Assembly (NCBI GenBank): GCA_964019135.1
Contig: OZ025256.1
Location: 16,995,911-17,059,910 of the forward strand
Length of the DNA: 64,000 bases
Origin: Arenicola marina
Lineage: Eukaryota; Annelida; Polychaeta; Arenicolidae
Direction of reading: 5' to 3'
Numbering within the stretch: the stretch's first letter is position 1; the number at the start of each line of letters is the position of its first letter. Below the pieces are notes generated by a model. That model did no database searches, had not been told where the DNA came from, and saw only the letters and a list, made by a program, of their open reading frames with translations. The translations under genes and the position numbers were made by a program. Below, one piece after another: positions 2,806-62,400 of the stretch.

Positions 2806-2975
2806 TCAGTGTCTCGGTATCTTAGGCGGCGGCATGAGGTCGGTGTCGGTGGGGGCCTCCCGCTTCTCGCCCTGGGGGGGTGGCAGCTTGGTGACGGGGG
2901 GTCGCCACCGGTGGCGCTCAATGAAGTCAAATAGGAGGTCTCTGGTTACCGGCTTCCGGATGCTCTGGCAGACGC
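2806..2975 (-). CDS. RNGTT: RNGTT exon 18, terminal (residues 559-614)
   Basis: Encodes [20 protein letters not shown] and on to [13 protein letters not shown], then TGA. It matches VCNSISNPVTKEMLFEFI and the proline-rich C-terminus of the vertebrate enzyme. Acceptor TTTCGGCAG. Confidence 0.95.
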
Positions 2976-5900: not shown

Positions 5901-8900
5901 TATGTGAAGAGACGTCCATGTAAAGTACAGACTACGATATGCCTTACCCATGGCCGTGCTATGCGAAGAGGCGTCCATGTAAGGTACAGACTACGATATG
6001 CCTTACCCATGGCCGTGCTATGCGAAGAGGCGTCCATGTAAAGTACAGACTACGATGGGCCTTACCCATGACCGGGCTTTGTAAAGAGGCGTCCATGTAA
6101 AGTACAGACTACGATATGCCTTACCCATAGCCGTGCTGTGTGAAGAGGCGTCCATGTAAAGTACTGACTACGATATGCCTTACCCATGGCCGTGCTATGC
6201 GAAGAGGCGTCCATGTAAAGTACAGACTACGATAGGCCTTACCCATGGCCGTGCTATGTGAAGAGGCGTCCATGTAAGGTACAGACTACGATATGCCTAA
6301 CCCATGGCCGTGCTATGTGAAGAGGCGTCCATGTAAAGTACAGACTACGATAGGCCTTACCCATGGCCGTGCTATGTGAAGAGGCGTCCATGTAAAGTAC
6401 AGACCACGATAGGCCTTACCCATGGCGGTGCTATGTGAAGAGGCGTCCATGTAAGGTACAGACTACGATAGGCCTTACCCATGGCCGAGCTATGCGAAGA
6501 GGCGTCCATGTAAAGTACAGACTACGATATACCTTACCCATGGCCGGGCTTTGTGAAGCGGCGTCCATGTAAGGTACAGACTACGATATACCTTACCCAT
6601 GGCCGAGCTATGCGAAGAGGCGTCCATGTAAAGTACAGACTACGATAGGCCTTACCCATGGCCGTGCTATGTGAAGAGGCGTCCATGTAAGGTACAGACT
6701 ACAATATGCCTTACCCATGGCTGTGCTATGTGAAGAGACGTCCATGTAAAGTACAGACTACGATATGCCTTACCCATGGCCGTGCTATGCGAAGAGGCGT
6801 CCATGTAAAGTACAGACTACGGTATGCCTAACCCATGGTCGTGCTTTGTGAAGAGGCGTCCATGTAAAGTACAGATTACGATAGGCCTTACCCATGGCCG
6901 TGCTGTGTAAAGTACAGACTACAATAGGCCTTACCCATGGCCGTGCTGTGTAAAGTACAGACTACGATAGGCCTTACCCATTGCCGTGCTGTAGCTGTTG
7001 GGGAACGACTTGTCCGTCCTCTGCCGCATGAACTTCCACGAGTTGGCCTCCTGGTCGAAGTGACACTCCACGATCTTGTTTTCCAGACCCTTTAGTTCCT
7101 TCGTCAAGGGCTGTCGGAGAAACAAAATCCCGATTGCTTCAACTTCACTATCACAACAAACAAATTGCAGAACCGCATGAATTAATCTTTAACAGCTAAT
7201 ATTTATACAATATTATGGGTAACATCCCAATAAAGAAACCCCGGATTACTTCCAGTAACAAGGTACAAAGACATTGAAGGGCAGTGAAGTCTATCTAAGC
7301 GGTCTGCGAAGCTGCGAAAAAACAGAACCACCTGGGACTGCGACTCATGTTCTGTTACCAGTTCAGTCACTAGTTATATACTACGGGAGCCTTCCAAGAT
7401 CAGTCGGTAAGCAGGCTGAGCTGTAGATCAACAGGTCGTGGGTTCGAACCCGGGCAGAGAGCCTTCCAAGATCAGTTGGTAAGCAGGCTGAGCTGCAGAT
7501 CAACAGGTCGTGGGTTTGAACCCGGGCAGAGAGCCTTCCAAGATCAGTTGGTAAGCAGGCTGAGCTGCAGGTCAACAGATCGTGGGTTCGAACCCTGGCA
7601 GAGAGCCTTCCAAGATCAGTTGGTAAGCAGGCTGAGCGGCAGATTAACAAGTCGTGGGTTCGAACCCTGGCAGAGAGCCTTCCAAGATCAGTTGGTAAGC
7701 AGGCTGAGCGGCAGATTAACAGGTCGTGGGTTCGAACCCTGGCAGAGCCTTCCAAGATCAGTGGGTAAGCAGTAGAGATCTGCGCGGGGCGGGCGCGGGC
7801 ACAGTTCTTGCGGGCGCGGGGCGGGCGCGGGGCGGGCGCGGGGCGGGCGCGGGCAGGCCTTTGCGGGCACTGCCCCCATTGCGCCCGCAGCGTTTGAAAC
7901 TTATTTTCATTCACTTATTTTTGTAGACGTAAAAAGACGCAGTAGATTCAAGACCAAACCATCGACCCGTAACAAATCATATTTTCGTGCATCAATAAAA
8001 ACGTCTGTTTCCGGCGGAAATAGTTAGTGCAAGCATGTTCTTGTTGTCTTGCGACCGATAAAGCTTCATTTAATCTCGCATAGTGTGAGACAAAGGCCTA
8101 GTGGTTGCGGCTATGGCTCCCAATGTGTTAAACGAACATGATAATCTCCTGTACGGGGTCCGCCATAGACACAAAGAGAGAAGCAGAAAAGATAGGGGGT
8201 TGAGGAGGGGAGGGGGGGTGCTTGACACAGGTGTTTGTCTGTGCAACTTGCGGGATACAAGGCTGAGAGAAAAGCGGCGGGGCTGGGGTGGGGAGAGGGG
8301 TGGGATTGTTATTTATTTCTAGCCAGTAGGTAGTTAGGTACGGTCGTTTGGGGGCATGCTTACTAAGCAGGCTGAGCGGCAGGTCCACAGGTCGTGGGTT
8401 CGAACCCTGGTACAGAGCCTTCCAAGATCAGTTGGTAAGCAGGCTGAGCGGCAGATCAACAGGTCGTGGGTTCGAACCCTGGCAGAGAGCCTTCCAAGAT
8501 CAGTTGGTACGCACTCTGAGCTGTAGATCAACAGGTCGTGGGTTCGAACCCTGGCAGAGGGCCTTCTAAGATCAGTTGGTAAGCAGGCTGAGCGGCAGAT
8601 CAACAGGTCGTGGGTTCGAACCCTGGCACGTATTTCATCGTCATGGGAGGTGTCGTGGTCCAAGTTGGCGTTCATGCGCCAAACATTTACAAGCAAACAT
8701 GACGGTTTTAGATTATCAATCGGTTTCAATACCTTGATCATAGAAAACGGTGCGTCCTGACCCCCGACGTACAGATATCCGATGGTTGTCGGCAACATTC
8801 TGGAAGACAAGGAATGGAATAAAATGAAGGTACATATCAAACTTAAGGCCAACGAGTGTTGCCTCAACTACATTATTGTGCGGTGACCGAAACACTGAGC

Positions 8901-11900
8901 TCTAAACCGAGATTACCATCGGCATGGTTGGATTTCTCGCTGTCATTACCGCTCGTTCAGTTTATGGACCAGTTCAGAATAACCCTCTGTAATTGATTCA
9001 TGACATACACTGCCCCAGACTGACGCAATATATATATATCTCTTTTCCTATTTTTTGGTCCAATATTGAAAGCATATATATGTATATAAATAATATACAG
9101 TAAGCGCATCATGTAATGTCATACATGCGGCAGGTTGGTTTATTTCCGTATAAAGCAATCCATTTTCCCTATTTTAGTACCATTCACATTCTTCCATGTT
9201 TGCGTTACGATCACGGCTGGTTTACTTTTAGGAACAAGACGACATAGCCACTAATTCGTTAGGTGGCGCTAGTACGGCCATCAGAGGTTATGTCTATATA
9301 TAGGGTGTGTGTCTCAAAATAAGCTTCTTCGTATCCATCACGTGACGTGTCGTACGGTTATCGGTCTGAGCCTCGATCTTGGACATTACAAATACATAAC
9401 ACGACAACCGAATGAGTTTACAAACCGTTACAAACAGTGTGGCATGACTTGTTAACCTACCCTATCTTCTCTTCTCGAACTATTTTGAGTCTGAAGTCGA
9501 CAGAGTTGAGGCTTGGAGGTTTCCACTTCAAGACATCCATGCAGCGACCGCACTTATACCTCTGCAAGACACATAGTAGACGCACAGTAGAAAATTGTCA
9601 AACACATTTGGAAAGAAGATGGAGGAAGGGAAAGAGACGACCTTTCAGCCGACGAGGCATATTTTTCCATGACGGGCAAGACCATTCCACAATGTTCTAT
9701 ACAATTTCGGAGTCTCCACAGTTAATATTGAGGGCACCGTGAATATCGTGACGTCCTAACCGCTAGTCCAATTTTGCTGAAATTTTAAACGAAAGGTTCT
9801 GAATTATGCCTGAGGCTGTGGTAAAAATAGGAAGGCGATAGCTCCAAACTTGGAAAAGTCGGGCTCGACACCCCCGTGTTCCAGGCACTCTAGCACCTCA
9901 AACGTTGCTCGCTACGCGCTCGAGCTGAGATCGGATTTGGTACAAGCTACATCACCAGTATCTCCAAGGACAACATTGGTGTTCAGATGTCGTCTAGTTT
10001 TCGAGCTAAAGGCTACACTGGGCATCTACAATTGTCAAGGTCACTACGTTCACCTTTGACCGAGGTCGCTGAAAAACGGTCAGCTTCGAGATATTATCTG
10101 ACGTAATCTTTGTATGTTTGTTGGCACCTGTTTAACTTGAAAAATTAAAAATCTTCAAGCATGGGTCAAATTTATAAAAAAGAATCCTGTGACGTCATTT
10201 CCATGTCGAATTGCACATGAAAGTGACAGTGCCGGGTACGTTCTTACACAACGAAAATTATAATGGGACTGTTTGAAGAAGGCATGTCTGAAATATTCGA
10301 AAAGATATCGCCGTAATGATGAAAGATTGACGTTTTTGACATGGAGAGTTCCGTGAATTTTCGGTCAACTCTGCAACCGGAAGTAAGGTAGGAACATACT
10401 ATTTTTATGTTAGAGACGGACAGGGGACCCCATTCACGCAATGACGCCATTTGCGTATTTTCGACATTTTTCGTCTGATGTTTGAAGATGTTTTAATATA
10501 CCGGAACTGACGTCATCGTGACGCCATATAACGCATGCGACAAATCTCAAATTTCCCAGGCCTTTTTGCTATTCGTGTTTTTAAGTCCCAGAGCAATATC
10601 TTCTACGTAAATACGTCAAACCACAGCAGAACGGTTCAAGGTCATGTTTTTTGTTTTTCGAAAAACATCAAGCTCAAAAATGAGTATGACGCATAAAAAA
10701 ATGAACAATACACGAAAGATGCTTAAATAGAGTAGCGCATTACACATGTGCTTAGTACTCTTGTCTCAGTCTTGCATTTGCCTTACAATTATTAATATCA
10801 GCACTTACGCCTTTCGAGCCCATATTTTTTGTATATATTATCTATATCATTTACTTAAGTCACTACCGTCGACTATACAGTGTGCTTCACCATCTTCATT
10901 TTTATACGGGAACCGTGTTTAACTGCCCGTATGGTGTATAGTGATGTTGTCGGAGGGGGGACCGGGGGGGGGGGGGACGCGGAGGATCGTAAACGGTTGA
11001 CTCGAGGAGTATTGAGCGTCAAGGAAGCTCCAGAGCCAGCTTAATTAATTAACAAAGCGTTCTACTTGGATATTCTGTAGTTAGTTTTATGTGTTGCGTA
11101 AAGATCTTGCTGATATAATAGAAGTCCTAAATCACCGCCGAACCCAACCCGGTCTTTCGGCAGGCGCCCCGAGCATTCCTTACACGTCACACGTAACTGT
11201 CCTTCGACCAGTCTGGGTTTTAACGAGAGTTGGCCGTACGGTAGGTGTCTGTCGACGGCATTGGAAGCATTGGTTGTATAGTCAGGAAGCTTGAACCACT
11301 TTTGGTTATATCGGGATACGGAAGTCAGCGTTAAGCCATGTCCCACGGGGTAATCGACTACTCTTTGAGAAGAAGGACATGGAATATTTATCCTGCGACC
11401 ATACAGACATGGCCACGTACAGCGGGGTTCGAACCACCGATCCACGTGCCGTTAGGCTTTCAGCTCAATGAGAGCGCTCTAACCCACTGAACTACCGGGC
11501 GGCCCTTGGAAGACGTGAGCATCAATGTGATGGAAATGTGATGGTGAAAACTCCTGTCGAGAATAATAGATGCGACACTGTTATCATCCTGTTGAGAAAC
11601 AGAGAAGTATCGTTTCTTGAAGTACTTCAGGTTCTTGATATGCGACGGGGGGGGGGGGCGCTTCTACAGACACCTTACAGTTAATTGCACGGGCCGTCTT
11701 CGAACCCTCACGGCCATGAAGGCCACGTTAGTGTAGCTCTAGACACTTACGTCAGGTGCCGGCTGGAAGATCAGACCGTCAATCTCATGAGCAACATCCT
11801 TGGCAAAGGACCCCTCCAAGATCTGAAACAGTGCCAACATCATCACCATTATCATCACCATCAGTAACATCACCATTATTAGAATCACCATCATCATCAG

Positions 11901-14900
11901 TGCATGAACAGTCATAAAGTAGAGGCAATGCCTAAGTGGATGGCGCATGTGACGTCACAAGTTTATCATACATCGTTCGGTAAGCGTGACGTCACAATCT
12001 GACCACCCACCTGCACAGCACACGTGACGTCACAATCTGACCACCCACCTGCACAGCACACGTGACGTCACAATCTGACCTCTCACCTGCACGGCACACG
12101 TGACGTCACAAGCTGACTACCCACCTGTACGGCACACGTGACGTCCCAGAACTGTTTCAAGCGGACGCTGAAGGGTTCCCGCGCCTTGTCCAGACCTCCG
12201 GTCCGGATCTTCTCGTATCGAGGTCCCACGAGCTCCTTCTGGATGCACAGCAACCGCCGATCCAGATCCGTCCCGCCCACGTCAATACCCTGCAACGAAA
12301 TGAAACAGTGCTTCAGGCCGTGTTTGTGATAAGATAAGTTAGTTGGTTGTATATTCAGAACGCTTTAACCACTTTTGGTGATATCGGGTCAATGGGAGAA
12401 GGAAGGGAGAGCGGAGCCATGTGCCCGGGGGTAACCCCCTACTCTTTACGAAGATGAACATGGGATCTTTAACCTGCGACATGGCAACAGCGGGTCTCGC
12501 ACCACCGATCCACGTGCCGTTAGGCTCTCAGCTAACCAGAGCACTCAATGCGAACGCTCTAGGCCACTGAGCTACCGGGCCGGCCCCTCTGATAAGATCT
12601 ATACTAATAAATTTAAGCTGTCTGTCCCACTATGCGCTGTCTGTCCCACTATGCCGCGGCATGCAAGAGCCCATTGGCATCAGCAGCCGCCTTGAACCTA
12701 TTAATATCCAGCCGTCGCTCTTAGATGTGTCAAAGCTATCGCATGTGTCAACACAACCGCTGGGTGCCTATCACCTTATCCCGCGGCATAATATCGCTTT
12801 CGGGTGCTTATCGAGCATGGTGACCATGCCTGCGGCGGGCTACCTGGCTTGGTGCCAACAGTAATAATATTTCTCCCAACGCCTTATCGCCCGAACCGTC
12901 ATCAAAACAAACAAATCCCGTAATGTCTCGCGTCCACAACTTCCCATTAGTAGCAAGAGAACGAACTCTGCCCGGGGAACCTTGTCTATTTGAATTGATT
13001 TGATCTTTTTGATCTTTGATCCAATTTTACAGTAATAGTTAAGCGGTCTACACGTCAATTCTATAGACCAACCAGGACGTCAGGCAGATTTTATCCACTG
13101 AAGGTAGTAGTAATACGTTAAATGACCAACAACGGACGGGAAACAGCCCCTTTTTTAACTCAATCAACCCTTTTTTTTTCACTCAATCAATGTATGAGCT
13201 TGGGCCTTAGTTTTACTGGACTGATATTCCTTTATATCATGCTTTAGCCGCAATTTGAGTATTCTGTACTGGATGCACAATAATTGCACAGGGTTTAAAT
13301 ATCCTTAACATATATGTCCCGTTATTCCGTAGCTCCGGGTCTCAATTTATGTCAATATGATTATCGATATTATTTCTGCCCAATGTCTACCTTCTGCCTG
13401 CTACTATTTGACGTATAAAACAAAATACTGTCATACTGTTATTTCTTTCGCTTATTACTACGAACGCTAGACGTAGGCTAGTAAGAGAAGAGAAGAGAAA
13501 TGAAGAGTCTCCTGTGTTAAAGTGATGTTTGTCATCCATTTATGTTCATTCATGCATTAAGTATTATCGCTTTGACGAATAAATGATTTTGAATCTTTTT
13601 GAATCTTGAATCTTGTGTCTACCGGGTGGAAACTTGGCCAAGCAACCTCGGCTTTCAATATAGTTTCTGTAAAGATTCAGTTAAAAATTCGTTCTGGCAG
13701 CAGTCATACAACCTCTGCTACGATCTCCCGGCAGAGGGCGTTCCGCTGAAGCTATAGTCCCTCTGCCCCACGTCATAGTTAGCCATCAGAATTACCCTTC
13801 ATACGGGAAAATTGAAAACGAATCTAATCGAAAAAATATTTGAAGATTGGCATCCAATACAACCCCTATTGCATTTACAGTGCTATTAGTACGGCGTCGG
13901 ACGAAGGAAATCGATTTTGTCGCTAATTATAGGCCATGTTTCTGTCGAAGTTACATCCAGTTCAAAGGCGTTAAGCGCTTTGAACTTTGACCCCGTGTAA
14001 TTTTAAAACATTTCTGTCGTAAGCTGTCGTAAGACAGCGACATGGCTACATTCTATTAATGTTACATCGAAATTACGTGTATGCTGCCAGGTTACACAAC
14101 ATCTAGTCATTCGCTGCCTTCATTACTGTATGGAGATTACCTCTGGCAACATATTTGTCAGGAATACAGTAGTATGTAGCGACTCACCTCAAACTTGATG
14201 ATGTCGTAGATCAGGTAGCGCGGAACTGGTTTTTCGTCCACTTTGTCAATGATCATTTCCTGTAATAGCGACCGCGAGAGACCGCGAGACTTTAGACGAC
14301 GTAAGTGACAATTAATGGCGGCCGCACGTGGAACGCCGAACGATGATGCAAAATCGGTCCATTTCAACTGACCATATAATAATCAACACTATTTATCATT
14401 CTTCACGTTTCTAACCTGACTTTACCCATCTCGGACAAAATCGAGGATTATTCATTCACTTCTCCACTTTAAAAAAAGAAAGAAACATGGCGGCTCGGGT
14501 GACGTACACATGATATATAGAAACGTCAGCCCTTTGTATAGCTGGGTGTACGAGTCGGTAAACGTACCCCATCCACCAGAGTCTTGGTCACGTGGTCCCG
14601 GAGATCCTTCCGCTTGGGAAAGACGAGGTGCGGCACGTGGAAGACGGTGTTGTCTCTGTCCAACATGTAAACCTCGTTGGCACCGTTTATCAACATCATG
14701 AACCTGTGGGGAGAGTCACACTTAACATGTACATCATGTACCTGAGTCACACTTAACATGTACATCATACACCAGAGGGGAAGGTCACACTTAACATGTA
14801 CATCATACACCTGAGGGGAAAGTCACCCTTAACATGTACATCATGTACCTGAGGGGAGAGTCACACTTAACATGTACATCATACACATGTGGGGAGAGTC

Positions 14901-17900
14901 ACACTTAACATGTACATCATGTACCTGAGGGGAGAGTCACACTTGACATGTACATCATGTACCTGTGGGGAGTGTCACACTTAACATGTACATCATGTAC
15001 CTGAGGGGAGAGTCACACTTAACATGTACATCATACACCTGAGGGGAGAGTCACACTTAACATGTACATCATGTACCTGAGGGGAGAGTCACACTTAACA
15101 TGTACATCATACACCTGAGGGGAGAGTCACACTTAACATGTACATCATGTACCTGAGGGGAGAGTCACACTTAACATGTACATCATACACCTGAGGGGAG
15201 AGTCACACTTAACATGTACATCATACACCTGAGGGGAGAGTCACACTTAACATGTACATCATGTACCTGTGGGGAGAGTCACACTTAACATGTACATCAT
15301 ACACCTGTGGGGAGAGCCACCCTTAACATGTACATCATGTACCTGAGGGGAGAGTCACACTTAACATGTACATCATACACCTGAAGGGAGAGTCACACTT
15401 AACATGTACATCATGTACCTGAGGGGAAAGTCACCCTTAACATGTACATCATGCACCGGCGGGGAGAGTCACACTTAACATGTACATCATGTACCTGAGG
15501 GGAGAGTCACACTTAACATGTACATCATACACCTGAGGGGAAAGTCACCCTTAACATGTACATCATACACCTGTGGGGAGAGTCACCCTTAACATGTACA
15601 TCATGTACCTGAGGGGAGAGTCACACTTAACATGTACATCATGTACCTGAGGGGAGAGTCACACTTAACATGTACATCATACACCTGTGGGGAGAGTCAC
15701 CCTTAACATGTACATCATGTACCTGAGGGGAGAGTCACACTTAACATGTACATCATAAACCTGTGGGGAGAGTCACACTTAACATGTACATCATGAACCT
15801 GTGGGGAGTCACTTAACATGTACATCATGTACCTGAGGAGAGAGTCACACTTAACATGTACATCATGTACCTGAGGGGAGAGTCACACTTAACATGTACA
15901 TCATGTACCTGAGGGGAGAGTCACACTTAACATGTACATCATACACCTGTGGGGAGAGTCACACTTAACATGTACATCATGTACCTGAGGGGAGAGTCAC
16001 ACTTAACATGTACATCATGTACCTGAGGGGAGTCACACTTAACATGTACATCATGTACCTGAGGGGAGAGTCACACTTAACATGTACATCATGTACCTGA
16101 GGGGAGAGTCACACTTAACATGTACATCATGTACCTGTGGGGAGTGTCACACTTAACATGTACATCATGCACCTGAGGGGAGAGTCACACTTAACATGTA
16201 CATCATACACCTGAAGGGAGAGTCACACTTAACATGTACATCATAAACCTGTGGGGAGAGTCACACTTAACATGTACATCATGTACCTGAGGGGAGAGTC
16301 ACATTTAACATGTACATCATACACCTGTGGGGAGAGTCACCCTTAACATGTACATCATGAACCTGTGGGGAGAGTCACACTTAACATGTACATCATACAC
16401 CTGAAGGGAGTCACATTTAACATGTACATCATGTACCTGAGGGGAGAGTCACATTTAACATGTACATCATGTACCTGAGGGGAGAGTCACATTTAACATG
16501 TACATCATACACCTGAAGGGAGAGTCACATTTAACATGTACATCATGTACCTGTGGCGAGAGTCACACTTAACAGGTACATCTTGTATCTGAGATAAGGC
16601 CGCTTTTGAGCAGACAAATGCTAAACTGGGCCAACCTCCCGGGACGATGAAGTATGAACGGATAACACATGCATCAGATTAGGTGCCCGTGCCCTAATTC
16701 GAACCCAGGACATATTGATCTGTGTGTAACCACTACACCAGAGAGTCCCACTACGCTGTGAGAGATATGCGGCCAGAAACAAGAGACCAGAGGGTTCCAT
16801 ACACCACAGGGCATTAAGCTGCACTGACCTCACACCGTCTATACACCACAGGGCATTAAGCTGCACTGACCTCACACCGTCTATACACCACAGGGCATTA
16901 AGCTGCACTCACCTCACACCGTCTATACACCACAGGGCATTAAGCTGCACTGACCTCACACCGTCCATACACCACAGGGCAGTAAGCTGCACTGACCTCA
17001 CACCGTCCATACACCACAGGGCATTAAGCGGCACTGACCTCACACCGTCCATACACCACAGGGCATTAAGCTGCACTCACCTCACACCGTCCATACACCA
17101 CAGGGCATTAAGCTGCACTGACCTCACACCGTCCATACACCACAGGGCATTAAGCGGCACTCACCTCACACCCTCCATACACCACAGGGCATTAAGCGGC
17201 ACTCACCTCACACCGTCTATACACCACAGGGCATTAAGCTGCACTCACCTCACACCGTCCATACACCACAGGGCATTAAGCTGCACTCACCTCACACCGT
17301 CCATACACCACAGGGCAGTAAGCTGCACTGACCTCACACCGTCCATACACCACAGGGCATTAAGCGGCACTGACCTCACACCGTCCATACACCACAGGGC
17401 ATTAAGCTGCACTGACCTCACACCGTCCATACACCACAGGGCATTAAGCGGCACTGACCTCACACCGTCCATACACCACAGGGCATTAAGCTGCACTCAC
17501 CTCACACCGTCCATACACCACAGGGCATTAAGCGGCACTCACCTCACACCGTCCATACACCACAGGGCATTAAGCTGCACTGATCTCACACCGTCTATAC
17601 ACCACAGGGCATTAAGCTGCACTGACCTCACACCGTCCATACACCACAGGGCATTAAGCTGCACTCACCTCACACCGTCCATACACCACAGGGCATTAAG
17701 CGGCACTCACCTCACACCGTCCATACACCACAGGGCATTAAGCGGCACTCACCTCACACCGTCCATACACCACAGGGCATTAAGCGGCACTGACCTCACA
17801 CCGTCCATACACCACAGGGCATTAAGCGGCACTGACCTCACACCGTCCATACACCACAGGGCATTAAGCTGCACTCACCTCACACCGTCCATACACCACA

Positions 17901-20900
17901 GGGCATTAAGCTGCACTCACCTCACACCGTCCATACACCACAGGGCATTAAGCGGCACTGACCTCACACCGTCCATACACCACAGGGCATTAAGCGGCAC
18001 TCACCTCACACCGTCCATACACCACAGAGCATTAAGCGGCACTCACCTCACACCGTCCATACACCACAGGGCATTAAGCGGCACTCACCTCACACCGTCC
18101 ATACACCACAGGGCATTAAGCTGCACTCACCTCACACCGTCCATACACCACAGGGCATTAAGCTGCACTGACCTCACACCGTCCATACACCACAGGGCAT
18201 TAAGCTGCACTGACCTCACACCGTCCATACACCACAGGGCATTAAGCTGCACTCACCTCACACCGTCCATACACCACAGGGCATTAAGCGGCACTGACCT
18301 CACACCGTCCATACACCACAGGGCATTAAGCGGCACTGACCTCACACCGTCCATACACCACAGGGCATTAAGCTGCACTGACCTCACACCGTCCATACAC
18401 CACAGGGCATTAGGCTGCACTCACCTCACACCGTCCATACACCACAGGGCATTAAGCTGCACTCACCTCACACCCTCCATACACCACAGGGCATTAAGCG
18501 GCACTCACCTCACACCGTCCATACACCACAGGGCATTAAGCGGCACTGACCTCACACCGTCCATACACCACAGGGCATTAAGCTGCACTGACCTCACACC
18601 GTCCATACACCACAGGGCATTAAGCGGCACTCACCTCACACCGTCCATACACCACAGGGCATTAAGCTGCACTGACCTCACACCGTCCATACACCACAGG
18701 GCATTAAGCTGCACTCACCTCACACCGTCCATACACCATAGGGCATTAAGCTGCACTCACCTCACACCGTCCATACACCACAGGGCATTAAGCGGCACTG
18801 ACCTCACACCGTCCATACACCACAGGGCATTAAGCGGCACTCACCTCACACCGTCCATACACCACAGGGCATTAAGCGGCACTGACCTCACACCGTCCAT
18901 ACACCACAGGGCATTAAGCTGCACTCACCTCACACCGTCCATACACCACAGGGCATTAAGCTGCACTGACCTCACACCGTCCATACACCACAGGGCATTA
19001 AGCTGCACTGACCTCACACCGTCTATACACCACAGGGCATTAAGCGGCACTGACCTCACACCGTCCATACACCACAGGGCATTAAGCTGTACTCACCTCA
19101 CACCGTCCATACACCACAGGGCATTAAGCTGCACTGACCTCACACCGTCCATACACCACAGGGCATTAAGCGGCACTCACCTCACACCGTCCATACACCA
19201 CAGGGCATTAAGCGGCACTCACCTCACACCGTCCATACACCACAGGGCATTAAGCGGCACTGACCTCACACCGTCCATACACCACAGGGCATTAAACGGC
19301 ACTGACCTCACACCGTCCATACACCACAGGGCATTAAGCGGCACTCACCTCACACCGTCCATACACCACAGGGCATTAAGCTGTACTGACCTCACACCGT
19401 CCATACACCACAGGGCATTAAGCGGCACTCACCTCACACCGTCCATACACCACAGGGCATTAAGCGGCACTGACCTCACACCGTCCATACACCACAGGGC
19501 ATTAAACGGCACTGACCTCACACCGTCCATACACCACAGGGCATTAAGCTGCACTGACCTCACACCGTCCATACACCACAGGGCATTAAGCGGCACTCAC
19601 CTCACACCGTCTATACACCACAGGGCATTAAGCTGCACTCACCTCACACCGTCCATACACCACAGGGCATTAAGTTGCACTCACCTCACACCGTCCATAC
19701 ACCACAGGGCATTAAGCTGCACTCACCTCACACCCTCCATACACCACAGGGCATTAAGCTGCACTGACCTCACACCGTCCATACACCACAGGGCATTAAG
19801 CTGCACTGACCTCACACCGTCTATACACCACAGGGCATTAAGCGGCACTGACCTCACACCGTCCATACACCACAGGGCATTAAGCTGCACTGACCTCACA
19901 CCGTCCATACACCACAGGGCATTAAGCTGTACTGACCTCACACCGTCTATACACCACAGGGCATTAAGCGGCACTCACCTCACACCGTCCATACACCACA
20001 GGGCATTAAGCTGCACTCACCTCACACCGTCCATACACCACAGGGCATTAAGCTGCACTCACCTCACACCGTCCATACACCACAGGGCATTAAGCTGCAC
20101 TCACCTCACACCGTCCATACACCACAGGGCATTAAGCTGCACTGACCTCACACCGTCCATACACCACAGGGCATTAAGCTGTACTCACCTCACACCGTCC
20201 ATACACCACAGGGCATTAAGCTGCACTGACCTCACACCGTCCATACACCACAGGGCATTAAGCGGCACTCACCTCACACCGTCCATACACCACAGGGCAT
20301 TAAGCGGCACTCACCTCACACCGTCCATACACCACAGGGCATTAAGCTGCACTCACCTCACACCGTCCATACACCACAGGGCATTAAGCTGCACTGACCT
20401 CACACCGTCCATACACCACAGGGCATTAAGAGGCACTCACTTCACACCGTCCATACACCACAGGGCATTAAGCTGTACTCACCTCACACCGTCCATACAC
20501 CACAGGGCATTAAGCTGCACTGACCTCACACCGTCCATACACCACAGGGCATTAAGAGGCACTCACTTCACACCGTCCATACACCACAGGGCATTAAGCT
20601 GTACTCACCTCACACCGTCCATACACCACATGGCATTAAGCTGCACTGACCTCACACCGTCCATACACCACAGGGCATTAGGCTGCACTCACCTCACACC
20701 GTCCATACACCACAGGGCATTAAGCTGCACTCACCTCACACCGTCCATACACCACAGGGCATTAAGCTGCACTGACCTCACACCGTCCATACACCACAGG
20801 GCATTAAGCGGCACTCACTTCACACCGTCCATACACCACAGGGCATTAAGCTGCACTCACCTCACACCGTCCATACACCACAGGGCATTAAGCTGCACTC

Positions 20901-23900
20901 ACCTCACACCGTCCATACACCACAGGGCATTAAGAGGCACTCACTTCACACCGTCCATACACCACAGGGCATTAAGCTGCACTCACCTCACACCGTCCAT
21001 ACACCACAGGGCATTAAGCTGCACTCACCTCACACCGTCCATACACCACAGGGCATTAAGCTGCACTGACCTCACACCGTCCATACACCACAGGGCATTA
21101 AGCTGCACTGACCTCACACCGTCCATACACCACAGGGCATTAAGCTGCACTCACCTCACACCGTCTATACACCACAGGGCATTAAGCTGTACTCACCTCA
21201 CACCGTCCATACACCACAGGGCATTAAGCTGCACTCACCTCACACCGTCTATACACCACAGGGCATTAAGCTGCATTGACCTCACACCGTCTATACACCA
21301 CAGGGCATTAAGCGGCACTCACCTCACACCGTCCATACACCACAGGGCATTAAGCGGCACTCACCTCACACCGTCCATACACCACAGGGCATTAAGCGGC
21401 ACTCACCTCACACCGTCCATACACCACAGGGCATTAAGCTGCACTGACCTCACACCGTCCATACACCACAGGGCATTAAGCTGCACTCACCTCACACCGT
21501 CCATACACCACAGGGCATTAAGCGGCACTCACCTCACACCGTCCATACACCACAGGGCATTAAGCTGCACTCACCTCACACCGTCCATACACCACAGGGC
21601 ATTAAGCGGCACTCACCTCACACCGTCCATACACCACAGGGCATTAAGCGGCACTCACCTCACACCGTCCATACACCACAGGGCATTAAGCTGCACTCAC
21701 CTCACACCGTCCATACACCACAGGGCATTAACCGGCACTCACCTCACACCGTCCATACACCACAGGGCATTAAGCTGCACTGACCTCACACCGTCCATAC
21801 ACCACAGGGCATTAAGCGGCACTCACCTCACACCGTCCATACACCACAGGGCATTAAGCTGCACTGACCTCACACCGTCCATACACCACAGGGCATTAAG
21901 CTGCACTGACCTCACACCGTCCATACACCACAGGGCATTAAGCGGCACTCACTTCACACCGTCCATACACCACAGGGCATTAAGCGGCACTCACCTCACA
22001 CCGTCCATACAACACAGGGCATTAAGCTGCACTCACCTCACACCGTCCATACACCACAGGGCATTAAGCGGCACTCACCTCACACCGTCCATACACCACA
22101 GGGCATTAGGCTGCACTGACCTCACACCGTCCATACACCACAGGGCATTAAGCTGCACTCACCTCACACCGTCCATACACCACAGGGCATTAAGCTGCAC
22201 TCACCTCACACCGTCCATACACCACAGGGCATTAAGCTGCACTGACCTCACACCGTCCATACACCACAGGGCATTAAGCTGCACTGACCTCACACCGTCC
22301 ATACACCACAGGGCATTAAGCTGCACTGACCTCACACCGTCCATACACCACAGGGCATTAAGCGGCACTCACCTCACACCGTCTATACACCACAGGGCAT
22401 TAAGCGGCACTGACCTCACACCGTCCATACACCACAGGGCATTAAGCTGCACTGACCTCACACCGTCCATACACCACAGGGCATTAAGCGGCACTCACCT
22501 CACACCGTCCATACACCACAGGGCATTAAGCGGCACTCACCTCACACCGTCTATACACCACAGGGCATTAAGCGGCACTCACCTCACACCCTCCATACAC
22601 CACAGGGCATTAAGCTGCACTCACCTCACACCGTCCATACACCACAGGGCATTAAGCGGCACTGACCTCACACCGTCCATACACCACAGGGCATTAAGCG
22701 GCACTCACCTCACACCGTCCATACACCACAGGGCATTAAGCTGCACTGACCTCACACCGTCCATACACCACAGGGCATTAAGCGGCACTCACCTCACACC
22801 GTCTATACACCACAGGGCATTAAGCGGCACTGACCTCACACCGTCCATACACCACAGGGCATTAAGCGGCACTCACCTCACACCCTCCATACACCACAGG
22901 GCATTAAGCGGCACTGACCTCACACCGTCCATACACCACAGGGCATTAAGCGGCACTCACCTCACACCGTCCATACACCACAGGGCATTAAGCGGCACTG
23001 ACCTCACACCGTCCATACACCACAGGGCATTAAGCGGCACTGACCTCACACCGTCCATACACCACAGGGCATTAAGCTGCACTGACCTCACACCGTCCAT
23101 ACACCACAGGGCATTAAGCTGCACTCACCTCACACCGTCTATACACCACAGGGCATTAAGCTGCACTGACCTCACACCGTCCATACACCACAGGGCATTA
23201 AGCTGCACTGACCTCACACCGTCCATACACCACAGGGCATTAAGCGGCACTCACCTCACACCGTCCATACACCACAGGGCATTAAGCGGCACTCACCTCA
23301 CACCGTCCATACACCACAGGGCATTAAGCTGCACTCACCTCACACCGTCCATACACCACAGGGCATTAAGCGGCACTCACCTCACACCGTCCATACACCA
23401 CAGGGCATTAAGCGGCACTCACCTCACACCGTCCATACACCACAGGGCATTAAGCTGCACTGACCTCACACCGTCCATACACCACAGGGCATTAAGCGGC
23501 ACTCACCTCACACCGTCCATACACCACAGGGCATTAAGCTGCACTCACCTCACACCGTCCATACACCACAGGGCATTAAGCGGCACTCACCTCACACCGT
23601 CCATACACCACAGGGCATTAAGCGGCACTCACCTCACACCGTCCATACACCACAGGGCATTAAGCTGCACTCACCTCACACCGTCCATACACCACAGGGC
23701 ATTAAGCGGCACTGACCTCACACCCTCCATACACCACAGGGCATTAAGCTGCACTGACCTCACACCGTCCATACACCACAGGGCATTAAGCTGCACTGAC
23801 CTCACACCGTCCATACACCACAGGGCATTAAGCGGCACTCACCTCACACCGTCCATACACCACAGAGCATTAAGCGGCACTCACCTCACACCGTCCATAC

Positions 23901-26900
23901 ACCACAGGGCATTAAGCTGCACTCACCTCACACCGTCCATACACCACAGGGCATTAAGCTGCACTCACCTCACACCGTCCATACACCACAGGGCATTAAG
24001 CTGCACTCACCTCACACCGTCTATACACCACAGGGCATTAAGCTGCACTCACCTCACACCATCCGCCTTCCAGCTGACTTTATATGCCTTCTTGGCGAGT
24101 AACGGCAGATTTACGCAGTCCATAGAAACAGGCTGTGATCCCGGAAACCCTGATCTGTAATGTAATAAACAAGATGATACCCAATATATCTGCTGATACA
24201 CTCATCAAAATGAAAGACTTATATTCACTACAATGGCCTTAACTTGTTATACTATTTTTTTTCTCCGGGTAATGTGTATCATATTATTGTTATTATAAGT
24301 CAATTGCCAGATTTTGGGAAACATATCCAGTAACAGATGAAAGTTAGGAAACCTTACAATACAGTATGGTTTGAAAGTCAAATTCACTAAATACCTCTGA
24401 ACTTTGAAGACATTTTGATTAAAGACATATGCAATCCAATGATGAAATCTAGAATTAAAACGAACTAAAATGAAAGACGAACGTACCCTTCCCAGCCACA
24501 CAGCTCTTGCGCGCGCCTTTGAATCTGAGAAAGACGCGGTTGTGACGTCACTTGTACGACGGTTGGGATGAGGCCATCCATAAATTGAGCATTCTGAAAA
24601 CCGTAAACGGCACATGTAACACGAACTGACAGAAAAACAGCTTTACCCAAACAAAGCAGAAACGCTGTCAAACTGGGTATTTTTTTATGTATATTTTGTT
24701 ACAAAATCATGAATTTCAAAGACACTTGGTAGAAAAGGATTCTTATCAAACTTAAACAGAAGAAAATGCACAGAAGCGTGACCAGCGAACAGAATGCACA
24801 GAAGCGTGACTAGTGAACAGAACGCACAGAAGCGTGACCAGCGAACAGAATGCACAGAAACGTGTCCAGCGAACAGAATGCACAGAAGCGTGACTAGTGA
24901 ACAGAAGGCACAGAAGCGTGACCAGCGAACAGAATGCACAGAAGCGTGACCAGAGAACAGAAGCGTGACCAGCGAACAGAATGCACAGAAGCGTGTCCAG
25001 CGAACAGAATGCACAGAAGCGTGACCAGCGAACAGAATGCACAGAAGCGTGACCAGCGAACATAATGCACAGAAGCGTGACCAGAGAACAGAAGCGTGAC
25101 CAGCGAACAGAATGCACAGAAGCGTGTCCAGTGAACAGAATGCACAGAAGCGTGACCACAGAACAGAAGCGTGACCAGCGAACAGAATGCACAGAAGCGT
25201 GACCAGTGAACAGAATGCACAGAAGCGTGACCAGTGAACAGAATGCACAGAAGCGTGACCAGCGAACAGAATGCACAGAAACGTGACCAGTGAACAGAAT
25301 GCACAGAAGCGTGACCAGTGAACAGAATGCACAGAAGCGTGACCAGAGAACAGAAGCGTGACCAGTGAACAGAATGCACAGAAGCGTGTCCAGCGAACAG
25401 AATGCACAGAAGCGTGACCAGTGAACAGAATGCACAGAAGCGTGTCCAGCGAACAGAATGCACAGAAGCGTGACCAGAGAACAGAAGCGTGACCAGCGAA
25501 CAGAATGCACAGAAGCGTGACCAGAGAACAGAATGCACAGAAGCGTGACCAGAGAACAGAAGCGTGACCAGTGAACAGAATGCACAGAAGCGTGACCAGC
25601 GAACAGAATGCACAGAAGCGTGACCAGAGAACAGAAGCGTGACCAGCGAACAGAACGCACAGAAACGTGACCAGTGAACAGAATGCACAGAAGCGTGACC
25701 AGCGAACAGAATGCACAGAAGCGTGACCAGCGAACAGAATGCACAGAAGCGTGACCAGTGAACAGAATGCACAGAAGCGTGACCAGTGAACAGAAGCGTG
25801 ACCAGCGAACAGAATGCACAGAAGCGTGTCCAGCGAACACAATGCACAGAAGCGTGACCAGCGAACAGAATGCACAGAAGCGTGACCAGAGAACAGAATG
25901 CACAGAAGCGTGACCAGAGAACAGAATGCACAGAAGCGTGTCCAGCGAACAGAATGCACAGAAGCGTGACCAGAGAACAGAAGCGTGACCAGCGAACAGA
26001 ATGCACAGAAGCGTGACCAGAGAACAGAATGCACAGAAGCGTGACCAGCGAACAGAAGCGTGACCAGAGAACAGAATGCACAGAAGCGTGACCAGAGAAC
26101 AGAATGCACAGAAGCGTGACCAGAGAACAGAAGCGTGACCAGCGAACAGAATGCACAGAAGCGTGACCAGAGAACAGAATGCACAGAAGCGTGACCAGAG
26201 AACAGAATGCCCAGAAGCGTGACCAGCGAACAGAAGCGTGACCAGCGAACAGAAGCGTGACCAGAGAACAGAATGCACAGAAGCGTGACCAGAGAACAGA
26301 ATGCCCAGAAGCGTGACCAGCGAACAGAAGCGTGACCAGCGAACAGAATGCACAGAAGCGTGACCAGAGAACAGAATGCACAGAAGCGTGACCAGAGAAC
26401 AGAAGCGTGACCAGCGAACAGAATGCACAGAAGCGTGACCAGCGAACAGAATGCACAGAAGCGTGACCAGAGAACAGAATGCACAGAAGCGTGACCAGAG
26501 AACAGAAGCGTGACCAGCGAACAGAATGCACAGAAGCGTGACCAGAGAACAGAACGCACAGAAGCGTGACCAGAGAACAGAATGCACAGAAGCGTGACCA
26601 GAGAACAGAAGCGTGACCAGCGAACAGAATGCACAGAAGCGTGACCAGCGAACAGAATGCACAGAAGCGTGACCAGCGAACAGAATGCACAGAAGCGTGA
26701 CCAGCGAACAGAATGCACAGAAGCGTGACCAGTGAACAGAATGCACAGAAGCGTGACTAGTGAACAGAATGCACAGAAGCGTGACCAGCGAACAGAATGC
26801 ACAGAAGCGTGACCAGCGAACAGAATGCACAGAAGCGTGACCAGCGAACAGAATGCACAGAAGCGTGACCAGAGAACAGAATGCACAGAAGCGTGACCAG

Positions 26901-29900
26901 AGAACAGAAGCGTGACCAGCGAACAGAATGCACAGAAGCGTGACCAGCGAACAGAATGCACAGAGGCGTGACCAGAGAACAGAATGCACAGAAGCGTGAC
27001 CAGAGAACAGAAGCGTGACCAGCGAACAGAATGCACAGAAGCGTGACCAGATAACAGAACGCACAGAAGCGTGACCAGAGAACAGAAGCGTGACCAGTGA
27101 ACAGAATGCACAGAAGCGTGACCAGCGAACAGAATGCACAGAAGCGTGACCAGCGAACAGAATGCACAGAAGCGTGACCAGTGAACAGAATGCACAGAAG
27201 CGTGACCAGTGAACAGAAGCGTGACCAGCGAACAGAATGCACAGAAGCGTGTCCAGCGAACACAATGCACAGAAGCGTGACCAGCGAACAGAATGCACAG
27301 AAGCGTGACCAGAGAACAGAATGCACAGAAGCGTGACCAGAGAACAGAATGCACAGAAGCGTGTCCAGCGAACAGAATGCACAGAAGCGTGACCAGAGAA
27401 CAGAAGCGTGACCAGCGAACAGAATGCACAGAAGCGTGACCAGAGAACAGAATGCACAGAAGCGTGACCAGCGAACAGAAGCGTGACCAGAGAACAGAAT
27501 GCACAGAAGCGTGACCAGAGAACAGAATGCACAGAAGCGTGACCAGAGAACAGAAGCGTGACCAGCGAACAGAATGCACAGAAGCGTGACCAGAGAACAG
27601 AATGCACAGAAGCGTGACCAGAGAACAGAATGCCCAGAAGCGTGACCAGCGAACAGAAGCGTGACCAGCGAACAGAAGCGTGACCAGAGAACAGAATGCA
27701 CAGAAGCGTGACCAGAGAACAGAATGCCCAGAAGCGTGACCAGCGAACAGAAGCGTGACCAGCGAACAGAATGCACAGAAGCGTGACCAGAGAACAGAAT
27801 GCACAGAAGCGTGACCAAAGAACAGAAGCGTGACCAGCGAACAGAATGCACAGAAGCGTGACCAGCGAACAGAATGCACAGAAGCGTGACCAGAGAACAG
27901 AATGCACAGAAGCGTGACCAGAGAACAGAAGCGTGACCAGCGAACAGAATGCACAGAAGCGTGACCAGAGAACAGAACGCACAGAAGCGTGACCAGAGAA
28001 CAGAATGCACAGAAGCGTGACCAGAGAACAGAAGCGTGACCAGCGAACAGAATGCACAGAAGCGTGACCAGCGAACAGAATGCACAGAAGCGTGACCAGC
28101 GAACAGAATGCACAGAAGCGTGACCAGCGAACAGAATGCACAGAAGCGTGACCAGTGAACAGAATGCACAGAAGCGTGACTAGTGAACAGAATGCACAGA
28201 AGCGTGACCAGCGAACAGAATGCACAGAAGCGTGACCAGCGAACAGAATGCACAGAAGCGTGACCAGCGAACAGAATGCACAGAAGCGTGACCAGCGAAC
28301 AGAATGCACAGAAGCGTGACCAGAGAACAGAATGCACAGAAGCGTGACCAGAGAACAGAAGCGTGACCAGCGAACAGAATGCACAGAAGCGTGACCAGCG
28401 AACAGAATGCACAGAGGCGTGACCAGAGAACAGAATGCACAGAAGCGTGACCAGAGAACAGAAGCGTGACCAGCGAACAGAATGCACAGAAGCGTGACCA
28501 GAGAACAGAACGCACAGAAGCGTGACCAGAGAACAGAATGCACAGAAGCGTGACCAGAGAACAGAAGCGTGACCAGCGAACAGAATGCACAGAAGCGTGA
28601 CCAGCGAACAGAATGCACAGAAGCGTGACCAGCGAACAGAATGCACAGAAGCGTGACCAGCGAACAGAATGCACAGAAGCGTGACCAGTGAACAGAATGC
28701 ACAGAAGCGTGACTAGTGAACAGAATGCACAGAAGCGTGACCAGCGAACAGAATGCACAGAAGCGTGACCAACGAACAGAATGCACAGAAGCGTGACCAG
28801 AGAACAGAATGCACAGAAGCGTGACCAGAGAACAGAATGCACAGAAGCGTGACCAGAGAACAGAACGCACAGAAGCGTGACCAGAGAACAGAACGCACAG
28901 AAGCGTGACCAGAGAACAGAATGCACAGAAGCGTGACCAGAGAACAGAAGCGTGACCAGCGAACAGAATGCACAGAAGCGTGTCCAGCGAACAGAATGCA
29001 CAGAAGCGTGACCAGAGAACAGAAGCGTGACCAGCGAACAGAATGCACAGAAGCGTGACCAGAATGTACAAGAGCGTGACCAGAGTGTACATGAGCGTGA
29101 CCAGAGTGTACAGAGTAAAGATGCGTGAGCAGTGTACAGAATGTACAGGAGCGAGACCAAAGTATACAGATTGTACAAATGCGTGAGCAGAGTGCACAGT
29201 GTACAGATGCGAGATTATTGACCAGAGTGTACAGATGCGTGATCAGTGACCATAGTGTACAGAAGGTGACCTGTGTACAGCACCCTAACCAGAGTACCCA
29301 GATGCCCGAGCAATGTACAGAATGTACAGTAGTAGCGCGACCGGACGTCACCAGAGTGCACAGAACTACGTCCCTACCTGTTTGTTGAGTTCCCGCCGCC
29401 GCTTGCCGCCCTGCCCATTGCTGGTGCCGCCCTCTGGCGAGGTGACTCCGTCTTCAATCATATTCCCGTCGTCGTCTCGACCCGTGTCGTCCGCCTCTGA
29501 TAAACAATAGGAACACGTCACCAACATGGTTTCACTTAAAGATGCTTAGACAAACTAAATGAGAATCTCAGGTCGCCGGTGCTAACCCTGGTGCCGGCGC
29601 CTGGGGTACGTTTCATCCTACTACATCACCATATTTTCGGGAGGTTTATTCGCCCAATTAGGCCTTCATGTGCGCAAAAGCGGCATACAACGTTTACTTT
29701 ACAATAACATGGCATCATGCAAACCGACAAGGTCACACGAACAATTACGATTCGTCATAGAATCACGGATTCTGTTTCGAGGATTTTTCTTCAAGAACTT
29801 GACGACTGTGGGTAGGAGGACAGCTTTCACAGAATTAACTCAAAAAATTCTTGGAGCTACCCGCCTACACTGTAAACCCAATAAATTAATTTCATAGGAA

Positions 29901-32900
29901 TTATCTAAGTGCCAATGACTCACATACACAACAGATTGACTCATCAACACAGCAATAACTCACCTGTACACCAGAGTGACTCATCCCCCAACCAATAACT
30001 CACTTGTACACCAGTGACTCATCCCCAAACCAATAACTCACCTGTACACAAGTGACTCATCCCCAAACCAATAACTCACCTGTACACCAGAGTGACTCAT
30101 CCCCAAACCAATAACTCACCTGTACACCAGAGTGGCTCATCCCCAAACCAATAACTCACCTGTACACCAGAGTGACTCATCCCAAACCAATAACTCACCT
30201 GTATACAAGTGAGTGATCCCCGAACCAATAACTCACCTGTACACCAGAGTGACTCATCCCCAAACCAATAACTCACCTGTATACAAGTGAGTGATCTCTA
30301 AACCAATAACTCACCTGTACACCAGAGTGAATCATCCCCAAATCAATAACTCACCTGTACACCAGAGTGACTCATTCCCAAACCAATAACTCACCTGTAC
30401 ACCAGTGACTCACCCCAAATCAATAACTCACCTGCACACCAGAGTGACTCATTCCCAAACCAATAACTCACCTGTACACCAGAGTGACTCATCCCCAAAC
30501 CAATAACTCACCTGTACACCAGAGTGACTCATCCCCAAACCAATAACTCACTTGTACACCAGAGTGACTCATCCCAAACCAATAACTCACCTGTATACAA
30601 GTGAGTGATCCCCGAACCAATAACTCACCTGTACACCAGAGTGACTCATCCCCAAACCAATAACTCACCTGTACACCAGAGTGACTCATCCCCAAACCAA
30701 TAACTCACCTGTATACAAGTGAGTGATCTCTAAACCAATAACTCACCTGTACACCAGAGTGACTCATCCCCAAACCAATAACTCACCTGTATACAAGTGA
30801 GTGATCTCTAAACCAATAACTCACCTGTACACCAGAGTGAATCATCCCCAAATCAATAACTCACCTGTACACCAGAGTGACTCATTCCCAAACCAATAAC
30901 TCACCTGTACACCAGTGACTCATCCCCAAATCAATAACTCACCTGCACACCAGAGTGATTCATCCCCAAACCAATAACTCACCAGTACACCAGTCAGGCA
31001 GTATGGGAGCACCGGGATTATCTTCCGGATCTCCGTACCGGGTAAATAACTCATCCAGGTAATCTTGTTTATAAATCCCTGGTGATCTAGCCTGTAAGAG
31101 GAGATCATTAATGTGCTCAACTTATCATGGTTGTTAGCAAAAACAATCGAAACGCAGAAAAAAAATCGGGTTTGAGAGATCCAAGATCACTAAGTGAAAT
31201 AAAAAGAGAGGTGTAAAAAAGACATGTCTATGTTAGGTTTCTTCAACAATCTGGTTAGACGTAGTAGCAAGGTTCAATCTTCAGGGTCATGCTTTATAAA
31301 GCAAACATAAAATAGCGTTAACCGGGTAATGTAAGGCTACAAGTTATTTACGCACCTTATCCAAAGTTTACCATGTTTTCTCTATTTCATGAGGTTCGCC
31401 TGAGTCGCTTGCCTGTTATTTTGGTAGTTTACATTTTGTATGAAGGGCATGGTGCCTGTAGTTATTTATCTACCTACGGGTACACGGATCACACTCACCT
31501 TGGAAAAACAGCTTAATGCCGCTTCCACACTGAAAGGAAGTGCCCAACCAACTTTAAATACAGATACAGGCATCAGAATTAATATAATCGTTTAAACGGA
31601 ATTATCATTTCAATATTCCATTAAGGTTTTTTTATATTACATTTTTATGCAGTATGATAACCTACTTTCAGTGACAGAGAAGATTGACTGACATTGTTCC
31701 CTATTTTGTTTGAGCCCACACATACCTCCAGTCCATTTTCTCGACGAGGTAGGCACTGATCAAGAAACCAGTTCTATTAAATCCGTGTGTGCAATGAACT
31801 CCTGTGGGCAAATAATTCATCGTACTATATTGGGAACAGACCCATGCAATACGCAAGGTAAGACAGCATGTACGGCGGGTACATTATCCACCAAATAAAT
31901 GCATATACATGTATATATATAGCGATATTTATAACTGATTTTACGGAGAGTAGTTTGATATATTGTGAGATATATAAATGTGACGTAGTCTCGAAAAAGC
32001 CACCAACTGTTATCATACCTATGACTGCCAATGGATTCTTTCTCATGAAGTTATCACAGACGTTGATGAATGCATTCGTTTGTTCTGGGGATGGTGTTTC
32101 TCCGTGGCTGTAAGATCAATCCGAAGGTTATCTCAAGTCTCAAAGACAATGTCAAGTCCATCTTTAAAGGGGAAGGGAATTGATGGACACAATATACTAT
32201 GAGAGTTATAATGAATCATACTATTTTTTGGCGAAAACTATATATTTTTAGGTGTAACGATAGCTTGAAAAACGCTTGTTAAAGACGGGACTATTTCTTT
32301 GCTGTGTGTAGGGCGTTATGAGGCCTCCGCGCACTGACGTCACGTGAAGTAGTGGTGATTCCTCCGCGATCCAGAGCGTATGGCGAACCCCAGCATATCG
32401 GGAGTTACAAGCCATGTATCCCGGGGGCGCACTGTTATACGAATCTGGTGGGGGGCCAATGCCATATGTATTCTGGACTGTTACAAATTTCTATGATCCA
32501 ACATTATCCCTATACTTATAAACTATATATATTTCCAATTAGTTATATCAATCATTAGCTTTTTATTTAATACTGCTAGGCCATGGGCTAATTAGTATAT
32601 ATAGGAATTTTAAGTACCGGTACATGTGTGTATCCATTTACATGGCAATATCATACAACATGGGTTAGGCTATCTAAACAAAATGCTACTAACATTTAAC
32701 CTTCATAATAACAGAGTGCTATCTCTTTCAATTTCAACAATTAGTTATTAATAGACTAAATCAAAAATGTTTTAATTATGAATCCTACTGTTAAAGTATC
32801 TGCTTTTTGTAAACAAAGATATAATATTTTGGTTTACCTGAAGTTAATTCTGAGATAACAGATATAAGTATGATTCACATGAGTACTTAACATCAACAAA

Positions 32901-36735: not shown

Positions 36736-36741
36736 TGCATC

Positions 36742-36946
36742 ATGGAGACCCCAACACAGGCTAAAGAGGTGCTGCAGTCCATGCGGAATTTGTTTCAGAG
36801 GCATATTGCTTGTGATCTGATACTTACTACAACACCATGTGAGAAAGAATTTAAGGTTCACAAGGCTTTGCTAGGAACCTTCTCTGGATACTTCCGCAAC
36901 CTTTTGAAAGAGGGAAAGTTGTCATCCAACTTATTTAACCTTGAAT
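36742..36946 (+). CDS. BTB-ZF exon 1 (coding), residues 1-69
   Basis: First part of the BTB domain from METPTQAKEVLQSMRNLF through FNLE. Donor GTGAGT. The exon itself begins at 36703. Confidence 0.9.
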
Positions 36947-44908: not shown

Positions 44909-44987
<79 letters not shown>

Positions 44988-55354: not shown

Positions 55355-55360
55355 TTTATT
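55355..55360 (-). terminator. AATAAA overlapping the sulfotransferase stop codon
   Basis: The minus strand reads TGC AAA TAA ACA, so the TAA stop lies within AATAAA. It is the only canonical signal seen nearby and implies a 3' UTR of a few tens of bases, if used. Confidence 0.5.
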
Positions 55361-56669: not shown

Positions 56670-56769
56670 GGCGGCGTCGTCGTGGCTGCAGTCGATCGCC
56701 CAGTATAACCCTGACAACAGACGATATTCAGACACGTATACAGTACCTCCGCCTCTCAATTTGTCGCCC

Positions 56770-62304: not shown

Positions 62305-62400
62305 AGGCCACTTTTGTGCACATACAGGCTAAATTGGGCCAAGGAACCTCCCGAGACGATGAAGGATGAAGGAATGAAACATGCCCCAGATTAGGTGCAC
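62305..62400 (-). mobile_element. SINE family B, tail fragment
   Basis: Plus-strand GGCCACTTTTGTGCACATAC..GGCTAAATTGGGCCAAGG..CAGATTAGGTGC matches the tail half of the copies at 16600 and 58630. The tRNA-like head is missing, and ACAAATCATGAAGATCGTT flanks it on both sides (62278-62296 and 62399-62417), likely a target-site duplication. Confidence 0.65.

Follow-up and report, generated by a model that had tools for sequence, protein, structure and literature searches.

How can an intron be removed correctly when nearly all of it consists of copies of its own two splice sites? The question is raised by intron 10 of RNGTT, the mRNA capping enzyme gene, in the polychaete Arenicola marina. The gene lies on the minus strand of a 64,000-nucleotide stretch (assembly GCA_964019135.1, contig OZ025256.1, positions 16,995,911 to 17,059,910 of the forward strand), referred to here as the window. 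RNGTT is essential. The reading favored here, with a probability of about 0.72, is that intron 10 is a two-sided mirage minisatellite, a tolerated by-product of repeat growth, and that exon definition picks the copies that end the exons. A first-pass annotation had described the layout of this intron; its observation is confirmed and its interpretation is partly supported.

Anatomy of intron 10

In the exon model, 18 coding exons running from 34290 to 2806 on the minus strand, the sixth of them 31 nt long, join into an uninterrupted protein of 614 residues. Its product carries the Pfam domains DSPc, mRNA_cap_enzyme, and mRNA_cap_C, and a 210-aa piece from exons 9-14 matches capping enzymes in the PDB (3rtx, E 2.3e-86; 3s24, E 1.1e-84). 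Judged by sequence, the gene is RNGTT. The parts that bear on intron 10 are as follows.

2806..34290, minus strand: RNGTT (mRNA capping enzyme) gene, 18 coding exons, 614 aa, with the three Pfam domains named above
24053..24154, minus strand: exon 10, 102 nt, 3' end ...AAG GCG GAT GGT GTG AG (KADG motif), donor GAG|GTGAGT
14704..24052, minus strand: intron 10, 9349 bp, from the exon model with its full 614-aa frame
16796..24064, minus strand: donor array of intron 10, the authentic site and 172 decoys, 42-bp unit, extending 12 nt into exon 10
16594..16795, minus strand: gap of 202 bp with a tRNA-like fragment of a short interspersed element (SINE), with relatives elsewhere in the window; tRNA-like by eye
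14693..16593, minus strand: acceptor array of intron 10, 49 decoys and the authentic site, 38-bp unit, extending 11 nt into exon 11
14568..14703, minus strand: exon 11, 136 nt, the sole one among exons 2-18 that starts with GT

Intron 10 is a phase 2 intron directly past the KADG motif. The reading frame is intact across the junction (...GAT GGT GTG AG + G TTC ATG ATG), and the authentic donor and acceptor are each intact and contiguous. The limits given by the first-pass annotation, 14704-24052, match the exon model to the base, and its exon numbering fits the 18-exon model.

The donor GAG|GTGAGT and its surroundings occur at 173 sites, the authentic one included, and all 172 spacings on the coding strand are exactly 42 bp (22-nt probe, at most 6 mismatches). 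Tandem Repeats Finder (TRF) reports 173.1 copies with 96% match. The acceptor occurs at 50 sites, again with the authentic one, and 45 of the 49 spacings on the coding strand are 38 bp (29-nt probe, at most 9 mismatches; TRF, 50.4 copies with 90% match). These counts agree with the earlier estimates of about 173 donor copies starting at exon 10 and about 49 acceptor copies leading up to exon 11. Stricter 14-nt probes of the two junctions (at most 2 mismatches) recover 173 donor and 35 acceptor copies within intron 10 and no copies outside it on either strand of the window. The splice dinucleotides are largely kept, with GT in 171/172 decoy donors and AG in 46/49 decoy acceptors, and pyrimidine content is similar in decoy and authentic acceptors (0.61 and 0.59). 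Because the donor array takes in 12 nt of exon 10 and the acceptor array 11 nt of exon 11, every unit holds a piece of exon together with a splice signal.

The intron is thus composed of 7257 bp of donor array, the 202-bp gap, and 1890 bp of acceptor array. The arrays make up 97.8% of it, which bears out the remark that almost nothing else remains. Site positions also confirm the proposed order: all decoy donors lie 5' of all decoy acceptors. The SINE said to separate the arrays was given as 160 bp; the gap measures 202 bp. Its tRNA-like stretch has diverged partial copies at 62305-62398 (80%) and 58632-58770 (70%), and since there are such copies elsewhere in the window the label SINE is reasonable. 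ARAGORN found no tRNA in the window, and Rfam, at gathering thresholds, found no RNA family.

Within the donor array the 173 units fall into 28 distinct kinds. The longest repeated block spans 5 units (mean 4.4 and maximum 7 in shuffles), and the two commonest variant sites are nearly independent of each other (Fisher p 0.03). The sequence CCCTnnGGTGTATG is common to donor and acceptor units on the coding strand of 14693-24064; 9 of 1000 shuffles were as good in a comparison that used the best-fitting acceptor variant. This weak resemblance might reflect exchange between the arrays or a shared origin of the two units.

Boundary-spanning arrays in RNGTT and in other animals

Three further introns of RNGTT, not mentioned in the first-pass annotation, carry donor arrays, which extend into the adjoining exons by 12, 24, and 15 nt.

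29912..30994, minus strand: donor array of intron 7, 27 decoys, unit of about 40 bp
11985..12148, minus strand: donor array of intron 13, 3 decoys, 38-bp unit
4367..6992, minus strand: donor array of intron 17, 43 decoys, 59-bp unit

When 32 junctions of a 17-exon model (exon 6 not included) were probed, five had several copies in the adjoining intron and the other 27 had one copy. After merging of overlapping TRF rows, RNGTT contains 11 tandem arrays, five of which cross an exon/intron junction and end inside the exon, against 0.29 expected; random placement reached five junction-spanning arrays in 0 of 20,000 trials. The largest other array of the gene lies in intron 8 (24765-29263), where a 28-bp unit that includes no splice site is repeated about 163 times, with variants of 19 bp. 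Arrays also occur beyond RNGTT, at 47836-51473 (73-bp units), 52584-54137 (33-bp units), and 56764-57763 (16/32-bp units).

Comparable structures have been described in amphioxus. Its globin genes contain minisatellite-like duplications at either boundary, called mirages after earlier work on Adh3 (PMC3087553). According to that report, mirage units range from 10 to 160 bp, mirage length varies, and regular splicing is apparently not disturbed (PMC3087553). The mirage of BflGb6 has 6 and 3 units in two haplotypes, and BflGb9 is a further globin gene with a mirage. PGBD5 of amphioxus has 2 or 7 units of 60 bp and 3 or 6 units of 108 bp, associated with exons 3 and 4, and the same source cites mirages in Adh and TnC (PMC3902484). 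In humans, the IFI6 (6-16/G1P3) minisatellite provides several splice donors at one exon end (Turri 1995, cited in PMC4526556).

The RNGTT arrays resemble the amphioxus mirages in spanning the exon-intron boundary and in carrying a splice signal with a piece of exon. Both arrays of intron 10 and the three others cross their boundaries, by 11-24 nt; the units of intron 10 carry splice signals, and their lengths of 42 and 38 bp lie within the 10-160 bp range recorded in amphioxus (PMC3087553). Unlike the amphioxus mirages in these accounts, which have few units, intron 10 holds 172 and 49 decoys at its two ends, and four introns of one gene are affected. The human IFI6 array is likewise a donor minisatellite at an exon end; the available account mentions donors only, and two downstream units are used as donors there, giving three mRNAs (PMC4526556).

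The first-pass annotation knew of no described intron with this double architecture. Its claim needs narrowing, in that junction minisatellites at one boundary are known from amphioxus and from human IFI6; no clear case of arrays at both boundaries of one intron, or of such copy numbers, was found in the titles and abstract openings of open-licence literature among the matches listed. The published wording on PGBD5 leaves room for its two repeats to lie at the two ends of one intron (PMC3902484). On sequence features, the arrays of intron 10 are best classed with mirages, as a two-sided and very large form for which no clear precedent was found.

A likely course of growth of the double array can be proposed. 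Minisatellites would have expanded from both boundaries of intron 10, each copying 11-12 nt of exon with its splice signal, until the intron was filled. The anatomy supports this history of paired mirages well. Low similarity between neighboring units was tried as a hallmark of mirages and dropped, as registered control arrays gave mixed results: the 73-bp and 28/19-bp arrays were similar at some lags and the 33-bp array was not.

Splice-site choice and wrong pairings

What distinguishes the true donor from its copies? Donor strength was taken as pairing energy with the 5' end of U1. By this measure, 90 of the 172 decoy donors of intron 10 equal the authentic site, 5 are stronger, and 77 are weaker, the weaker ones being mostly GTCAGT units. 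Other introns differ: the authentic donor of intron 7, CTG|GTGAGT, is outdone in U1 pairing by 24/27 of its decoys; the three decoys of intron 13 are weaker than their authentic site; and in intron 17, 37/43 are equal, 1 is stronger, and 5 are weaker. Strength has no power to mark the true site, and therefore position must decide, if splicing is accurate. An ordering of strong and weak donors along the intron 10 array was sought and rejected, for they are as mixed as in shuffles (82 runs, compared with 85.4 and a standard deviation of 6.2).

The favored reading would answer the question through exon definition favoring the copy nearest each exon, and such a choice of terminal copies is the likeliest route to correct mRNA. 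With each decoy taken, exon 10 would grow by 42 nt and exon 11 by about 38 nt, so that only the first few decoys would compete.

Wrong pairings have predictable products. In computed mRNAs, 8648 of the 8649 wrong combinations of donor and acceptor lead to a premature stop. Each of the 8600 pairings with a decoy donor terminates after residue 310, because the unit reads TGA immediately, and the true donor joined to a decoy acceptor gives a premature stop in 48 of 49 cases. Since these mRNAs are computed to stop prematurely, nonsense-mediated decay should remove them. The TGA is a trivial outcome of GTGAGT in this phase and hence no evidence of design.

The layout has consequences of its own. 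With decoy donors all before decoy acceptors, no false exon within the intron can be bounded by members of these two sets; parts of the acceptor array could become short false exons only if the AG|GT of a decoy acceptor itself served as donor. Pairings of decoy with decoy account for 172 x 49 = 8428 of the 8649, and they leave the authentic pair in place, nested around the excised piece and available for splicing again. The donors-then-acceptors order would thereby preserve the true outer pair, which may be spliced in a second round. A decoy donor joined to the true acceptor (172 pairings) is a dead end, and the true donor joined to a decoy acceptor (49 pairings) can be rescued only via a rebuilt donor.

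Nothing in the variation of either unit suggests selective maintenance of the decoys. Among the 172 decoys, 26 of the 42 positions of the donor unit are invariant, and a near-perfect GT is therefore ordinary. The two positions of the acceptor AG have 2 and 1 variants among 49 decoys, where the median position has 1. This absence of special conservation at splice positions fits a by-product. Most probably, minisatellite turnover produced the double array as a side effect that is tolerated.

Several points weigh against this reading. The one decoy acceptor that escapes a premature stop is in frame and adds 23 residues, which fits a decoy 69 nt upstream of exon 11. Of the 172 decoy donors, 72 have a base other than G at intron position 3; this makes them weaker and might point to mild selection against decoys. 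U1 pairing is in any case a crude measure of strength. The exon-definition step is general knowledge, and a literature search on it gave no related open-licence paper. Splicing behavior at all junctions is read from genomic sequence, and the tie to amphioxus (lancelet) mirages is by resemblance only. Array length could also vary among individuals, or part of the assembly could be wrong. The mixture of 28 unit kinds without long repeated blocks argues against assembly by block copying.

Alternative explanations and significance

An intron that clears its own decoys is a bold and unlikely alternative. The acceptor array would act as a series of recursive, or ratchet, splice sites that remove the decoy donors stepwise. 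Decoy acceptors emerge before the true acceptor in transcription, and they would pair with decoy donors and delete them; after use of the true donor, the AG|GT of a decoy acceptor would rebuild a donor, and the intron would ratchet on to exon 11. In a broader form, the spliceosome could start anywhere and, through nested and ratcheting rounds, still arrive at the authentic junction, making intron 10 error-correcting, a proposal with a similarly small chance of being right. The nested layout and the recursive-type acceptors together raise the thought that the acceptor array might clear donor errors.

The acceptors themselves offer some support. AG|GT occurs in 46/49 decoy acceptors, and 45/49 match Y5+N0-4YAGGT, the motif used to search for human recursive sites (PMC10156609). 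This motif is rare elsewhere: apart from these decoys, the minus strand of the window has it only at the authentic exon 11 site and at 3 other places, the plus strand has 3 matches, and the 20,291 bp of the other 16 introns contain no match. Of the 17 acceptors in RNGTT, GT follows only that of exon 11. Like the published recursive sites, the decoys combine a polypyrimidine tract with YAG|GT (PMC10156609), as 45 of the 49 do. In U1 pairing of the rebuilt donors (50 sites, the authentic one included), 43 reach -5.7 kcal/mol, 2 reach -5.4, and 5 reach -4.2; the weakest authentic donors of RNGTT lie at -5.6 to -5.8. However, the 45 motif copies descend from a single AG|GT junction and are not independent signals, and AG and GT are no more constrained than other unit positions. 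Known recursive sites split an intron into segments, in long introns first and in shorter ones too by the account in PMC10156609, whereas the candidate sites here are tandem copies of the intron's own end.

Models of self-clearing indicate what is possible, not what happens; their pairing weights are invented. In a toy model in which all sites are equal, the correct product amounts to 0.012% without rescue and to 0.58% when the donor array faces a single acceptor; it reaches 13.8% under nested rescue and 39% when perfect donor rebuilding is added. The advantage depends on how steeply site choice declines with distance. With a decay length of one copy the donor array alone gives 63% and the double array with rescue 51%; at two copies the values are 39% and 36%; at five copies or more the double array outperforms the donor array alone. 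A sequential model yields any outcome from 0 to 100%, set by the assumed decoy-acceptor use and rebuilding efficiency. It gives 0.6% at zero use and 50% at 20% use with 50% rebuilding; without rebuilding, use of 20% and 50% gives 4% and 0%.

Nested reactions within one intron recall the stwintrons of fungi (PMC8469720, PMC9024468). A stwintron has an outer splice element that is split by the inner intron; intron 10 lacks this arrangement, with both outer sites whole and many possible inner pairs.

There is a slim chance of an assembly artefact, with arrays of false length or wrongly joined to each other. Long arrays are hard to assemble, but both arrays run unbroken into the correct exons in the correct phase, and their units are diverse and scattered rather than block copies.

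Regulation of RNGTT by the arrays seems very improbable. Wrong pairings would supply poison mRNAs, with array length or splicing-factor levels setting the amount of enzyme. The near-universal premature ends, 8648 of 8649, and the presence of decoys in four introns of the gene are what such a mechanism would want, yet a TGA that follows trivially from GTGAGT in this phase need not be selected, and the arrays bear no signature of constraint.

Least credible is RNA structure that hides the decoys or pairs the donor and acceptor arrays and so brings the exons together: pairing of four donor with four acceptor units exceeds that of dinucleotide shuffles (z -3.56), but in the same test a stretch of the unrelated 28-bp array of intron 8 scores as well (z -4.17), the intron 7 donor array reaches z -2.78, and neither the intron 17 donor array (z 0.88) nor the 73-bp array (z -0.77) is better than shuffles. 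Specific pairing between the two arrays was rejected on the intron 8 score. Hiding of decoys was likewise rejected, with local-fold pairing of 0.58 at the authentic donor and 0.42-0.60 at the four nearest decoys.

The remainder of the window offers a few separate observations. Tandem 72-bp tRNA-like units occupy 7387-7772 and 8364-8628, with GGTTCGAACCC in both consensuses; ARAGORN calls no tRNA gene there, and the units are perhaps a SINE body repeated head to tail. A long open frame on the minus strand (55359-56774), which matches Sulfotransfer_3, is bordered at its upstream end by the array at 56764-57763. On the plus strand, open frames in 36736-46077 match BTB and C2H2 zinc-finger domains and may together form a single BTB zinc-finger gene. 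The donor unit pattern was not found in viral contigs, nor the acceptor unit pattern in contigs of prokaryote genomes, an outcome to be expected when the gene is an animal one. In viral contigs, two stretches fit a pattern from a 194-aa protein piece, and neither encodes a relative.

Intron 10 amounts to a natural experiment on splice-site choice, with more than 170 near-identical donors, about half of the decoys matching the true one in U1 pairing, and 50 acceptors. Provided that splicing is accurate, the place of a site with respect to its exon, and not signal strength, decides almost alone; the array of intron 7 is a cleaner test of position versus strength than intron 10. Should intermediates of nested or recursive splicing occur, introns are able to correct mis-splicing. 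RNGTT illustrates that both ends of one intron can turn into minisatellites and that one gene can hold five such arrays; both points are relevant to the lengthening of introns and the origin of new ones.

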